This document shows, piece by piece, positions 2,541-60,043 of a DNA stretch of 64,000 bases. The position numbers and the translations under genes were made by a program. The notes beneath the pieces were generated by a model. It did not search any database and had not been told where the DNA came from. It saw nothing but the letters and a program-made list of their open reading frames with translations. The stretch lies in NCBI GenBank assembly GCA_902768985.1, contig CACXNA010000007.1, forward strand, positions 1-64,000. Direction: 5' to 3'. Positions within the stretch are counted from its first letter, which is position 1; each line of letters begins with the position of its first letter. This DNA comes from an uncultured Bacteroidia bacterium. Its GTDB lineage: Bacteria > Bacteroidota > Bacteroidia > Bacteroidales > UBA932.

Positions 2541-4724
2541 ATGTCAGATTTCATCACCCCACTCCAGACATACATTGACCAGCTTACGCACTTACACGTA
2601 AGCCACTCCAGCGGCTTCAAGGCTCCTCATAAGGCTGTCTTGATGATAACTGTCACGGAGATGGTGCGGGATATGAAGATTGGTTCGCCAGTCATCTATC
2701 TCAATGATGAGCTGAAGAAGGAGTTCACCAAAAACTGGCGTCGCTACATCCAGATAAATACACCTTTTGTAGGAGACATCCGGATGCCCTTCCCCAGGAT
2801 GGGAACCGAGAAGTTTGTGGTCTCCAGCTCTGACATTTCGTTTGAGATTGAAAAGGCGCTATTCTACTGGATGCGTGAACCGGAAGGCGCAGAGGAGATT
2901 CTTGCCACCCTGATTGGTCAGTATCTTGCACCGTTCGCCTTCAAGCACAAAGTTGACTTCACGGAGCTGAATCCCTACCGCGATAAGAAACTGTATCCCT
3001 ATCAGACCGAAGCGAAAGCCAAGATATACAAGATGTGGACGCAGATGCGTAGCATCATGTTCCAGATGCCCACAGGCACAGGTAAAACCTACCTGTTCGT
3101 GTCCATCGCAAGAGATCTGTTCGAATGGAGTGTCCAACATAAGGCGGCCGTCAAGATTCTATTCCTGGCGCACCGTATTGAGCTCATCAAGCAAATCAAG
3201 GAGAAACTCAGCCTGAAATACGGTCTCGCTGCCGGCATGATTGCGGCAAACAACATGGAGGAGGATTATATGCCTTACCAGGTTGCATCCGTACAGACCC
3301 TTATCCGGCGCTTGGACAGATGGAAGGGCAAAGCCTTTGACATCATCATCGTAGATGAGGCCCACCACGTCAAGGCAGATAGTTACAAGAAGATCCTTCG
3401 TGCCTTCCCTCAAGCAAAGGTTCTGGGTGTGACCGCCACTCCCTACCGTATGAGCCACGAGAGTTTCCGTCCCGAATTCGACGACCTCATCACCTCGATG
3501 CCCGTCGCCCGCTTCATAAAAGAAGGCTGGCTTTGTGATTACGAATACTACTCCATACGGCCGGAATCCCGCATCCAGATGGACATTGACAGCATCAATC
3601 GCTTTGCCATGGACGGTGATTATCTGGATGAGGCGGCAGCTGATGTGATGGACCGTGACGAGATCCGCGCTGGTATCGTAGCCTCGTATGAACACTATGC
3701 CAAGGGTAAGAAAGGTATCGTTTACACGATTACAAAGGCCCATAATCTGCACGTATGCGCCCAGTTCGTGGCTCGTGGATACAAGGCAGTGGCCATTGAT
3801 GACACCACCCCGGCAGACGTCCGTGAAGGCTATGTAAAGGACTTCAAAGCCGGAAGAATTGACATCATTTGTAACGTCAACATATTCAGTGAAGGTTTCG
3901 ATTGCCCGGACCTGGAATTTGTCCAGCTTGCCCGACCGACGAAATCACTTTCCATGTACCTGCAGCAAGTGGGGCGTGGCTTGCGTGTCGCAAAGGGTAA
4001 GGATAAAGTGATCCTCCTTGACAATGTCGGCCTCTATAATCGCTTCGGCTTCCCATCCGCAAAACGCCAATGGAGACGACATTTTGAGGGCTACGACTGC
4101 GACTATTCCGTGCCTTATGGAACACGGGTCGTGGACGGTAAGGAAATCTACTTCATGGATGAATTCGAGGAAGGTGAAGAGGATGTCGAGATGCTCCATG
4201 ACTCAAAGGAAGAAGTCGTAGAGGGAGCTGAACTGAAGAATGGCGTTGAAGACATCTATGCCAACGAGCCGGAATTCAGATATTACTTGGAAAAGCGAGG
4301 CAAGGATGAGAACGACATCAAGCGCATCATTCGAGGAATCAAAGGCGATGTTGACACCATCATCCGAGGCAAATATGATTCAAGCCACAAGAGCGTTCTC
4401 AGTATGAACGACATCGGTGCTTTGGAATTGTACCTGTACGACTTCCAGGTGACGCCTGCCATGGCGGAAATGAATTCTGCCAAAAAAATGATTATGACCT
4501 CTGCCCTTGAGGCTTATATCAATTACCTCAAGTGGCAACTGTCTGAGGATGCGATTGTCGCTGATCCTGTTGATATTGAGGAACTCCAAGAAAAGCAGGA
4601 AGAGATTGTCCCGAAGCGTACCATCGAGGATGTCGAACTGGAAATCTCCGTGCTCCGGAAATGGAACATGGATATTCCAGACGAACTCATGCGGGAATAT
4701 ATGTCTCTCAAAAAGAAGCAGTAG
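2541..4724 (+). CDS. DEAD/DEAH superfamily 2 helicase with N-terminal putative DNA-binding domain
   Basis: 727 aa. Residues ~1-130 contain the pattern PHKAVLM...F...W...PF, which resembles the DNA sulfur-binding domain of ScoMcrA-type nucleases. The assignment is tentative. An SF2 helicase core follows: Q-like region YPYQTEA, Walker A PTGTGKT near residue 178, Walker B VDEAHH near 270, motif III VTATPYR, and motif VI QVGRGLR near 476. The C-terminal ~180 residues are acidic and helical and unidentified. It is the last gene of the plus-strand operon (1-4724) and ends 5 bases from a convergent UvrD-like gene. It probably unwinds or translocates on invading DNA as part of a defence module with the AbiH-like gene, but no nuclease domain is visible. 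Confidence 0.85.
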   Translation: MSDFITPLQTYIDQLTHLHVSHSSGFKAPHKAVLMITVTEMVRDMKIGSPVIYLNDELKKEFTKNWRRYIQINTPFVGDIRMPFPRMGTEKFVVSSSDISFEIEKALFYWMREPEGAEEILATLIGQYLAPFAFKHKVDFTELNPYRDKKLYPYQTEAKAKIYKMWTQMRSIMFQMPTGTGKTYLFVSIARDLFEWSVQHKAAVKILFLAHRIELIKQIKEKLSLKYGLAAGMIAANNMEEDYMPYQVASVQTLIRRLDRWKGKAFDIIIVDEAHHVKADSYKKILRAFPQAKVLGVTATPYRMSHESFRPEFDDLITSMPVARFIKEGWLCDYEYYSIRPESRIQMDIDSINRFAMDGDYLDEAAADVMDRDEIRAGIVASYEHYAKGKKGIVYTITKAHNLHVCAQFVARGYKAVAIDDTTPADVREGYVKDFKAGRIDIICNVNIFSEGFDCPDLEFVQLARPTKSLSMYLQQVGRGLRVAKGKDKVILLDNVGLYNRFGFPSAKRQWRRHFEGYDCDYSVPYGTRVVDGKEIYFMDEFEEGEEDVEMLHDSKEEVVEGAELKNGVEDIYANEPEFRYYLEKRGKDENDIKRIIRGIKGDVDTIIRGKYDSSHKSVLSMNDIGALELYLYDFQVTPAMAEMNSAKKMIMTSALEAYINYLKWQLSEDAIVADPVDIEELQEKQEEIVPKRTIEDVELEISVLRKWNMDIPDELMREYMSLKKKQ

Positions 4725-43718: not shown

Positions 43719-43738
43719 TCCCCCTTGCCACCAGGTAT

Positions 43739-43868
43739 ATCCTCAAAATGGGGTGCTGGTGAGGACGGAAGCCGGTTTTTCTGCCACTTGTCCTCAAAAT
43801 AGGCCATTTTTGAGGACAGGAAGCAGTTTTTCCGCCACTTATCCTCAAAACAAGCCTTTTCTGAGGAC
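43739..43868. repeat. Three-unit array of 28-nt palindromes at exact 51-bp period
   Basis: Units start at 43739, 43790 and 43841. Each has left arm RTCCTCAAAA, an 8-base centre and a right arm ending GAGGAC. The two 23-base intervals are near-identical, both ending in CCACTT (GGTTTTTCTGCCACTT and AGTTTTTCCGCCACTT). The same family forms a seven-unit array at 59649-59984. The locus lies between convergent genes. Because 51 is a multiple of 3 the array stays open in some frames, but the palindromes argue against a protein. Confidence 0.9.
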
Positions 43869-43990
43869 AGCCAACCAATTTGTCCGCCGGGAGCTGGCAG
43901 GGACCTGTCTCCTCCCTGCCCGAGTCCGGGGGTGGACACGTCCTCCGGAGCCAGTCCCTGCCAGCTCTACCCGACGGACGAAGATCCCTC

Positions 43991-44350
43991 TTGCGGCAGC
44001 CGGTGGGGAGGATGTGCGGAAGCCCGCGCCCGTTTGCCCATGCTGTCGGGGGGTGTGCGCGAGCCGTGCGGTGGGAACGGCTGCCGTGGGTACTGGAGGC
44101 AGATAAGGCGGCAGGGTGGCGGCGGGCAAGCATTTTTTTGCTTGCACGACGGCAGCCCTGCCGCCTCTGCCGGAAGCACCGGACAGAAAAAGGCTTGTAT
44201 TTCTGGCCGGTCCCCCATTTTTTCGGGGGACCTGGCAGGTTTTGCCGGGGGATCCTGGCCAGAAAACGTTATTCGCCGGGCAGAGCCGGCGAATAACGTA
44301 AATGATGCGTTCGGAGCGAAGCGACGCAGGGGGTCCGGGGGGTTAGCCCA
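43991..44350. repeat. Structured dispersed repeat element, copy 2
   Basis: It matches 35209-35640 over long stretches (GCGGCAGCCGGTGGGGAGG; the GCAAGCA...TGCTTGC hairpin nested in CGGCAGGG...CCCTGCCG). The stem that is GGCAGGTCC/GGACCTGCC in copy 1 is GGTCCCCC/GGGGGACC here. It ends with GTTATTCGCCGG / CCGGCGAATAAC (44267-44297), a perfect inverted repeat before the trigger-factor gene. No gene. Confidence 0.7.
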
Positions 44351-44366
44351 CCGGCGATAATAGGAT

Positions 44367-45368
44367 TTACAGCTCGCGGAACTTCGCGGCGGTGATCTTC
44401 GTGGGCTTGAGGGTGATGGTCTCCTTGATCTTGTCGAGGACCTTGCGGTCTTCGACCTGCTCGACCAGGCGGTCGATCTGCTTCTGATCCTGGAGCATGT
44501 TGACAGCCATCTCCTTCACCATCTCATCGGGCACATTGCCGATGCCGTACATCGCGTACTGGTAGCGGGCGAAAGCCTCGGCCTGCTCGTGCAGGTCCTT
44601 CTCCTCCACCTTGAATCCCCACTTCTGCATCAGGGAGCCACGCACCAGCTGCCACTTGAAATCCTCGGCGAAGCCCGGGAAATCCTTCTCGACATCCTCC
44701 TTGGAGAGCTTGCCGTTGTTGGCCTCGATGAGCCAGCGCTTCAGGAACTCCTCCGGGAGCTTCACATCGGCCTTCTTCACGAAGAAGTCGCGGATATCCT
44801 TGGTCAGGCGCCACTGAGCCTCACTCTCGTACTGGTTCTTCAGGCGCTCGGAGACCTCCTTCTCGATGTCCTCGTCGGACTTGGCCTCCTGGCCCTCCTC
44901 CTTGTGCTCGGCATAATACTTCTTCATGCTATCGATCATCGGAGCCTTGTCCTTCGCAGCGACGGTCACGGTATAAGAAGGCACGGTGTCGGCCTTCTCC
45001 ACCTCCACGTTCACCTCCGGGGCCAGGCCCAGGTCGAAGACAAAGGTGAAGTCGTTGCCGGACTCCCACGTCAGCTCGGGCTGGTTCGCGGAAGCGAGGG
45101 GCTCGCCCAGGATGTGGAGCTTCTTGTCGTTGATGTGCTTGTCCAGCGCCTGGCCGATCACCTGGTTCACGGACTCGACGAGCGCCTGCTCGCCATAGAC
45201 GCGCTTGATCAGGGAGGCGGGCACCATGCCCTTGCGGAAGCCCTTGAACTCCGCCGTACGGCGACGGTCGGCAAGTTTTTTCTTTTCAATCTCAGCATAG
45301 TCTGCCGCGGCCACCTCGATGGTCAGCTCGCGGTTCAGATCGTCAATCTTCTTTTCTTTTACTTTCAT
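44367..45368 (-). CDS. tig: Trigger factor, short form without PPIase domain
   Basis: 333 aa, versus ~430-450 for full-length trigger factor. The ribosome-binding domain is intact, with the signature GFRKGMVPASLIKRVYG near residue 45. The central FKBP-type prolyl isomerase domain is missing: the chain goes from VEVEKADTVPSYTV straight into the helical C-terminal chaperone domain (~160-333). The protein should still bind L23 at the exit tunnel and hold nascent chains, but should not isomerise prolyl bonds. It lies 4 bases after pgpH in a minus-strand operon. Confidence 0.88.
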   Translation of the reverse strand: MKVKEKKIDDLNRELTIEVAAADYAEIEKKKLADRRRTAEFKGFRKGMVPASLIKRVYGEQALVESVNQVIGQALDKHINDKKLHILGEPLASANQPELTWESGNDFTFVFDLGLAPEVNVEVEKADTVPSYTVTVAAKDKAPMIDSMKKYYAEHKEEGQEAKSDEDIEKEVSERLKNQYESEAQWRLTKDIRDFFVKKADVKLPEEFLKRWLIEANNGKLSKEDVEKDFPGFAEDFKWQLVRGSLMQKWGFKVEEKDLHEQAEAFARYQYAMYGIGNVPDEMVKEMAVNMLQDQKQIDRLVEQVEDRKVLDKIKETITLKPTKITAAKFREL

Positions 45369-59188: not shown

Positions 59189-59411
59189 GTGGTTATCTGG
59201 TTTTGTTTGTTTTATCTCTTTTCTTTCTCTGTTTCTATTATTTCTCTGTCTGTGTTGTATACAAATCTTACAATCTTCTATTCGATCCCTTTTCTCTATC
59301 GCCCTGCCGCTCCTCCGTCCGACCGACAGCCCCCCTGCCTCTCTCCCCGTCCTGTTTCTCCCTGTCTCTCCTGTCTTCCGGCCCTCCTCTGCTTCATCCA
59401 GGCTCCTTCCC

Positions 59412-59645
59412 CAGTCTTCCGGTCCGTCCTGCTTCTTCCTGCCTCCTCGGCTTGCCTCATCCAGCCCTCCTCTGCTTCATCCAGCCTCCCCAGTCTTCCG
59501 GCCCGTCCTGCTTCTTCCTGCCTCTCCAGCCTGTCTCATCTGGCCCTCCTCTGCTTCATCCAAGCTCCCCCCAGTCTTCCGGTCCGTCCTGCTTCTTCCT
59601 GCCCTCCTATCTTCCGGCCCGGCCTGCTTCTTCCTGCCTCTTCGC
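59412..59645. repeat. Polypyrimidine tandem repeats, ~80-bp unit
   Basis: The phrase CAGTCTTCCGGYCCGTCCTG starts at 59412, 59491 and 59572 (periods 79 and 81). Each is followed by CTTCTTCCTGCC and a CTCCTCTGCTTCATCC segment, and shortened copies lie at either end (59374 onward and ~59610). The plus strand is nearly all C and T. It adjoins the palindrome array. 59189-59411 is also pyrimidine-rich and holds no gene; it should contain the promoter of the mutase gene. Confidence 0.8.
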
Positions 59646-59648
59646 CCT

Positions 59649-59984
59649 ATCCTCAAAACAGGGCTGATTTGAGGATAAACCTCCGTTTTTCCACCGTCCG
59701 TCCTCAAAACAAGGCAATTATGAGGATAAACCTCCGTTTTCCCACTGTTTGTCCTCAAAACAGGGCGTTTTTGAGGACAAAGCCCCGGTTTTTCCGTCGG
59801 CCGTGCGCAAAATGAGGTTATTTTGCGCACCGACCCGGATTATTCAGCCTTCCGTGCGCAAATCCGGGGCTTTTTGCGCACCGCTTTCAATTCTTCCTGT
59901 CGGCCGTCCACAAAAACGGGGTGTTTTTGTGTATGGGACCCGTTTTTTTGCCTGCCGTACACAAATCTGGCGGTTTTTGTGTAC
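59649..59984. repeat. Seven-unit array of covarying 28-29-nt palindromes at 51-52-bp period
   Basis: Units start at 59649, 59700, 59751, 59803, 59854, 59906 and 59957. Each is a left arm of 10, a centre of 8-9 and a right arm of 10 bases. Arms: RTCCTCAAAA with TTTTGAGGAY (units 1-3), GTGCGCAAAA with TTTTGCGCAC (4-5), and GTCCACAAAA or GTACACAAAT with TTTTGTGTAT or TTTTGTGTAC (6-7). Units 3, 4, 5 and 7 pair perfectly in the outer nine bases. Intervals of 22-24 bases are related to each other (CCGGTTTTTCC...GGCC). No cas gene is present and no unit is identical to another. Confidence 0.93.
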
Positions 59985-60043
59985 GGGCCCGGCTGCGGTC
60001 CGGGCGGAACAGGTCAAATATACTAATTTTTTGTCGAAAGTGT

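Follow-up and report, generated by a model that had tools for sequence, protein, structure and literature searches.

The described systems closest to the element reported here are the repetitive extragenic palindromes (REPs) and the transposases associated with them. In the available part of the account by Bertels and Rainey (2011; PMC3116915), REP doublets forming hairpins (REPINs) are extragenic, are linked to a REP-associated tyrosine transposase (RAYT), and probably replicate as the doublet. The GTAG and CGTC REPs and the bacterial interspersed mosaic elements (BIMEs), as far as the accessible text of Di Nocera et al. (2013; PMC3733652) describes them, have an unpaired tetranucleotide at just one of their ends, and the CGTC families have loops of 4 to 5, a CCA tail, and no dedicated transposase. 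The accessible part of a survey of TnpA-REP proteins (PMC6006769) adds a subclass 2.6 from Bacteroidetes, whose genes are flanked by atypical structures that lack GT[AG]G and recur in the genome, and the "double foot" REPs of subclass 2.4, which have symmetric ends. Here we analyze an array of seven palindromes in a 64,000-nucleotide stretch (the window) of contig C7 of an uncultured Bacteroidia bacterium of the gut, whose 2.35-Mb genome of 28 contigs is labeled G000 below. We consider it highly likely that this array is a cluster of a REP/REPIN-like interspersed family served by its own divergent RAYT (HuH, Y1 type), which mobilizes a two-dyad unit.

The seven dyads of the array start at 59650, 59701, 59752, 59804, 59855, 59907, and 59958, at successive steps of 51, 51, 52, 51, 52, and 51, with 8 or 9 of the 9 arm pairs complementary in every dyad. 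A chain of this length is far above chance, as 500 dinucleotide shuffles of positions 59640 to 59990 gave chains of 0 to 3. Matches below are to R2, the broader of two covariance models.

59650 to 59675, no strand assigned: dyad 1, arms TCCTCA/TGAGGA, within the R2 match 59650 to 59726
59701 to 59726, no strand assigned: dyad 2, arms TCCTCA/TGAGGA, within the same R2 match
59752 to 59777, no strand assigned: dyad 3, arms TCCTCA/TGAGGA
59804 to 59829, no strand assigned: dyad 4, arms TGCGCA/TGCGCA, within the R2 match 59804 to 59880 (65.9 bits)
59855 to 59880, no strand assigned: dyad 5, arms TGCGCA/TGCGCA, within the same R2 match
59907 to 59933, no strand assigned: dyad 6, arms TCCACA/TGTGTA, center of 15, one outer pair broken, within the R2 match 59907 to 59983 (50.9 bits)
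59958 to 59983, no strand assigned: dyad 7, arms TACACA/TGTGTA, within the same R2 match
59676 to 59957, + strand: six inter-dyad spacers of 24 to 26 bp with a T-rich center in this orientation (59676 to 59700, 59727 to 59751, 59778 to 59803, 59830 to 59854, 59881 to 59906, and 59934 to 59957)

The arm sequence switches inside a single array, which sits between divergent genes. An initial annotation, made from the letters of the window alone, had described a periodic array of seven palindromes whose arms differ while the AAAA...TTTT flanks and the center persist, with intervals similar to one another. All of this is borne out for the window array, the intervals being spacers with an oriented consensus; its unit starts lay one base to the left of those mapped here, the extra pair being complementary in five of the seven units. 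It had overlooked a second array in the window, the further clusters of the genome, and the transposase gene described below.

The array belongs to a dispersed family. Searches with blastn recovered 29 matches to it in its own genome, where the core TCCTCA-N14-TGAGGA has 69 exact copies and the reversed control none; the stretches fetched from this genome hold 31 clusters, namely, the window array, a second array in the window, and 29 more. The dyad consensus is TCCTCA-AAA-n-(GGCC-like center)-n-TTT-TGAGGA, a symmetric 26 bp in which the center between the six-base arms comprises 14 bp, 8 of them unpaired. Successive dyads are joined by a 25-bp directional spacer, which reads CGGAAGCCGGTTTTTCCGCCACTTA or the complement. 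When gaps of 0 to 80 bp were allowed, this length was found in all 78 gap readings from the own genome (40 distinct spacers), in 24 of 28 from the sister genome (G121), and in 77 of 87 from other species. The length of the spacer is thus conserved and its sequence is not; the dyad centers vary as well. Information amounts to 0.87 bit per position in the spacer versus 0.17 and 0.20 in the outer flanks, and this drop indicates that the element ends at the outer dyads. The commonest arrangement is the doublet, with two exact units in 22 of the 29 multi-unit clusters of the own genome. The basic unit is therefore two symmetric 26-bp dyads plus an oriented 25-bp spacer (77 bp in all), and each extension of an array adds one spacer and one dyad, which yields the 51-bp lattice.

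These are properties of REPs, which are palindromes of 20 to 40 bp, high in copy number and mainly extragenic. By a home-made gene caller trained on the window, none of the 31 clusters lies inside a called gene, 27 lie between genes, and 4 lie where a contig or fetched stretch stops; one cluster extends over the end of the transposase gene described below. The 27 classified clusters comprise 16 in codirectional, 9 in convergent, and 2 in divergent regions (Fisher p 0.08 against the regions of the window). A pooled set of 116 clusters (80 classified, 28 at edges, and 8 inside called genes) gave 33, 32, and 15, respectively (convergent versus divergent, p 0.019), the preference for codirectional or convergent over divergent regions that characterizes REPs. 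Of 68 units of the own genome, 67 have A or G as their left neighbor, and the right neighbor is C or T; no fixed tetranucleotide, such as a one-sided unpaired GTAG or CGTC tag, stands next to them.

As far as the cited texts go, the family resembles REPINs in its doublets of short palindromes with a spacer, dispersed extragenically and linked to a RAYT gene (PMC3116915). It differs in having no GTAG tag and in its fixed 51-bp lattice, with arrays of up to eight units (seven in the window and eight in G037); moreover, because each unit is itself symmetric, the doublets are not head-to-head or tail-to-tail. With the tagged REPs and BIMEs, it shares palindromes of 20 to 40 bp that are mostly extragenic and often dimeric, the capacity to mix unit types, and the occurrence of CGTC or TGTC at the ends of units; in the present family, however, these letters lie in a symmetric stem, the 14-bp center has 8 unpaired bases, and spacers are of constant length (PMC3733652). 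The BrickBuilt miniature inverted-repeat transposable element of Porphyromonas gingivalis is likewise an intergenic, dispersed Bacteroidales element with tandem units, but in the portion of its description available, these are 23-nucleotide units without spacers, bounded by a leader and a tail and with no dyad per unit, in contrast to a 51-bp period with 25-bp spacers (PMC4596501). A regular period is the sole resemblance to a CRISPR (clustered regularly interspaced short palindromic repeat) array, which has near-identical repeats and unique spacers; here the spacers are alike (57% identity within the own genome) and the repeats vary. The remark in the initial annotation that no named element has this design finds no support, REP doublets (REPINs and BIMEs) being a named kind.

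The family extends through the genus, probably Cryptobacteroides. The pattern TCCTCA-N14-TGAGGA-N(10-40)-TCCTCA occurs in at least 37 of 400 genus genomes (control match, 1 of 400), with a gap of nearly always 25 among the places listed; in two of the 37 (G170 and G378; gap of 36), it lies in coding sequence and probably reflects chance. A covariance model of two dyads plus the spacer (R1) matched at least 93 of 200 genus genomes, with a best E of ≤1e-6 in 84 and above that value in 9. Both counts are lower bounds, as a limited number of candidates was scored per genome (23 in the 200-genome R1 scan; 12 in the order-wide R2 scan). Of the 28 genomes among G000 to G060 that match R1, 15 have no TCCTCA core at all. 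In a sample of 393 genomes from the order, the TCCTCA doublet was found only in the own genome, apart from one chance-like match with a gap of 13, and R2 scored strongly in the own genome and in at least 5 of 392 others at no more than 30.3 bits. Phage and plasmid collections gave no blastn match. In a more distant relative (L043, 5234 to 5306), we observed a related-looking palindrome with another foot (CACAGAA..TTCTGTG) and a weak R2 match of 19.0 bits.

The arms change between species in a complementary fashion. In the loci read, TCCACA/TGTGGA arms occur in G149 (15 units), G111 (9), G150 (8), G048 (5), and G154 (4), and TTCCCA/TGGGAA arms occur in G145 (2); G038 and G037 carry TCCTTA/TGAGGA units, and further units are asymmetric, e.g., TCCTCA/TGTGGA in L218. 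Other species thus retain the 14-bp center and the 25-bp spacer with different arms. This sustains the view in the initial annotation that a symmetry is repeated here more than a sequence. The search of relatives with a structure model that the annotation had proposed corresponds to the R1 scan above (93 of 200 genus genomes). In a 38-row alignment, 53 cells were changed on both sides (shuffled, 19.4 ± 2.9) and the covariation score was 0.244 (shuffled, 0.099 ± 0.010), an effect size that leans upward because the rows were picked via a model that rewards pairing; the rows of alignment A2 come from matches of R1, which favors pairing, and the two alignments lean towards structure. Pair 4/23 shows all four Watson-Crick orders, with exceptions in 1 of 38 rows in the first dyad and 3 in the second; T1, C3, and their partners are invariant in all 38 rows, and positions 2 and 4 are variable. 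Outside the six-base core, covariation was detected in other species at +1, +3, +4, and +5 (P = 0.001, 0.001, 0.015, and 0.000), whereas in the own genome none was seen outside the core, inner pairs included.

Genes were called at the array loci of 44 genomes, and the resulting 260 proteins were compared with one another. The protein family present in the most genomes (seven) bears the HuH motif of Y1 transposases, and its profile marks genes beside arrays in 13 genomes. Nine of these belong to the 44 genomes fetched for their arrays alone (G000, G121, G037, G106, G149, G154, G186, G236, and G273), and four (G146, G191, G315, and G376) come from 20 fetched stretches partly picked for two arrays ~1 kb apart. 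Dyads stand on both sides of the gene in 11 of the 13, the own genome included, usually within about 100 bp; the exceptions are G191, which is cut by a contig end, and G106, whose dyads stand 469 bp away on a single side. In 190,538 bases of array-free comparison loci, no member of the family is present. A RAYT gene flanked by repeats, as in REPIN/REPtron systems, was thereby found in 13 genomes, and the suggestion in the initial annotation that no gene is associated with the array finds no support, since the gene lies elsewhere in the genome. In the own genome, it occupies approximately C6:43967 to 44935, between dyad arrays at C6:43150 to 43277 and 44913 to 45040. The arms beside the gene are TCCACA in G149, G154, and G191 and TCCTCA elsewhere (mixed with TCCTTA in G037). 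In G000, G121, G273, G315, G376, and G191, the reading frame runs into a dyad at its 3' end; TGAGGA supplies the TGA stop codon in the first two. The locus L242 of G037 (C7; 1946 to 2328) has eight dyads at steps of exactly 51, with arms TCCTCA, TCCTTA, and TCCTCG, adjoining the transposase gene, an array as long as or longer than that of the window.

The proteins combine HuH and tyrosine motifs (NH[ILF]H and YV[NID]RN[GP]) with a long C-terminal part, and a Y1 fold is predicted for them. Compared by the published motif table, subclass 2.6 has NH[LIV]H and YIH[QN]NP; its genes are likewise flanked by tag-less repeats, and symmetric ends recur in the double-foot REPs of subclass 2.4, so far as that text describes them (PMC6006769). 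The two transposases tested had no match in a defense library, and sequence-profile searches of PDB recovered weak matches only, including the ISDra2 transposase (E of 0.8 to 0.9). Between the upstream array and the gene in the own genome (L020, 1878 to 2471; C6) lies a reading frame of 197 amino acids with a weak Myb-like match, below the cutoff, and relatives near arrays in G149 and G106. An earlier RAYT candidate of the own genome (G000:C1:224233; PF01797, 20.1 bits) was rejected as the partner: no two-dyad match was found at 12 clade loci or at L076 (13 sources; 47,527 bases), and the presence of its family in 330 of 400 genus genomes, against 37 of 400 for exact TCCTCA doublets, also counts against partnership. 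At L076 (2234 to 3154; C1), a RAYT-like gene different from the array-flanked one, with the motif NHSH and a family present in 330 of 400 genus genomes, is followed by two GGGGAAGG..CCTTCCCC palindromes at 3174 to 3282, possibly a second gene-repeat pair.

The transposase has very probably aided the spread of the palindromes. By analogy with RAYT/REPIN systems, as set out in the accessible parts of PMC3116915 and PMC6006769, each dyad would fold into a hairpin in single-stranded DNA, such as the lagging strand; the transposase would recognize the hairpin feet, cut the two-dyad unit at its ends or close to them, and copy or move this spreading unit into intergenic DNA. The frozen 25-bp spacer may reflect a need for two hairpins in one complex, which would most simply explain the fixed distance. 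The window array is most simply regarded as a passive copy that recombination between units has since extended or trimmed (seven here and four in the orthologous array of the sister).

Several observations weigh against this reading. The transposase family is known from fetched stretches rather than from whole-genome searches, and the choice of some stretches for two arrays ~1 kb apart makes 4 of the 13 genomes a biased sample. The pattern of the tyrosine motif was matched by regular expression in 11 of 13, and sequence scores fall short of the curated cutoffs: NF047646 reached at best 20.6 bits (cutoff, 80) in three array-flanked proteins, and PF01797 (Y1_Tnp) gave 14.6 (cutoff, 23) in two of five proteins and nothing in three. 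The best Foldseek E value was 7e-3, with none ≤0.001. Unlike known REPs, which a fixed GTAG/GGAG or CGTC tag defines, the dyads carry no such tag. There was no sign of transposition or excision and no target-site footprint, and the sole clear presence/absence difference from the sister (window 43719 to 44366) is a 648-bp mosaic, not a clean insertion.

Among the alternatives, a phased operator array fares best, although we judge it unlikely. Under this explanation, a dimeric protein would bind duplex dyads five helical turns apart on one face of the DNA, serving chromosome organization or transcription control, with a specificity that drifts between species. Half-site centers at distances of 20 and 31 bp, which approach whole helical turns, would suit such a protein, as would a spacer conserved in length only, the invariant T1 and C3 with their mirror positions beside variable positions 2 and 4, and a predicted curvature that, for 12 of 13 arrays, is higher than in shuffles (mean z of 1.7, estimated with a wedge table). 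A transposase-like gene flanked by arrays in 13 genomes is not what an operator model would predict, and the model sits poorly with the excess of sites in convergent over divergent regions and with the gain and loss of units between close relatives. It is very improbable that the palindromes are RNA hairpin strings that end transcription or protect mRNA in 3' untranslated regions. Many clusters do lie downstream of genes, arm changes are complementary, and both strands fold better than shuffles (z of −4.7 and −5.5), but DNA palindromes packed this densely would give such folds in any case; GU mismatches are not in excess on the sense strand (9 GU versus 7 AC; 72 other), just 16 of 33 codirectional clusters have the array nearer to the upstream gene's 3' end, terminator-like sites do not exceed shuffles, and an Rfam scan of the window found one tRNA and nothing at the array. 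A plain minisatellite, in which slippage or unequal exchange multiplies a 51-bp unit with no trans-acting factor, is the least probable, for although unit number varies between orthologous arrays (7 versus 4) and one cluster (L016) has two identical units, loops are barely more alike within one array (0.57) than between arrays (0.53), so that the units are not fresh tandem copies, and slippage leaves genome-wide two-dyad clusters with a common spacer unexplained. The initial annotation had offered phased protein-binding dyads, an RNA hairpin string, and a REP family; the last was the right kind, the wobble test lends the RNA string no support, and the phased dyads, which the predicted curvature would fit, are a possible but unlikely reading.

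With the REP/REPIN reading thus preferred, the feature is real and orderly, ordinary in kind as a REP/REPIN family with a RAYT, and new as a variant; our searches of the open-license literature listed no description of this repeat family. A Bacteroidales genus thereby gains a REP-type family with its own very divergent RAYT, to which the repeats, not the gene, led. Whereas a one-sided tag defines the known REPs, these are tag-less and symmetric; the distance between two palindromes is fixed to the base, and the intervening sequence drifts. We tentatively suggest, as a possibility, that they form a distinct class in which the transposase reads the outer six stem pairs (T-n-C-n-C-A, with letters 2, 4, and sometimes 5 free) on two hairpins exactly 51 bp apart, and in which the half-site drifts genome-wide as a matched pair with the RAYT, the TCCTCA/TCCACA switch having occurred independently at least twice on the transposase tree. 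If this is true, drift by lineage would make the genus a natural series for reading the recognition code of a HuH transposase; the many relatives with the same geometry and different arms allow transposase residues to be tested against hairpin-foot letters and the reason for 51 to be sought.

The comparison with the sister genome (~96% identity in coding flanks) concerns two further features of the window.

43740 to 43867, + strand: second array of the same family, dyads 43740 to 43765, 43791 to 43816, and 43842 to 43867 with two 25-bp spacers; R2 match at 43791 to 43867 (77.5 bits)
43719 to 44366, no strand assigned: mosaic intergenic region between two convergent genes, holding the second array and other dispersed repeats; ~55 to 58 bp in the sister

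The second array stands directly behind a stop codon, and the 648-bp region that contains it is replaced in the sister by a plain inverted repeat with T-rich ends. Nine further aligned places include arrays without change (L017, L025, and L027) and arrays that differ by partial units or whole dyads (L019, L020, and L024). Several other dispersed repeats lie behind the second array (43882 to 44354), pieces of which match many places in the sister genome. Another dispersed palindrome, ATTCGCCGG..CCGGCGAAT, often occurs beside arrays (L016, L020, L023, L025, L030, and window 44267 to 44300), and L009, L016, L021, and L022 share a 41-bp palindrome around GAGAGCC..GGCTCTC. Directly to the left of the window array, at 59377 to 59608, there is a 79-bp C-rich tandem repeat (2.8 copies; 86% match) with none at that place in the sister genome. 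Relatives of a neighboring gene were found in ruminant metagenome assemblies (rumen, omasum, and others) labeled Bacteroidales or Bacteroidia.
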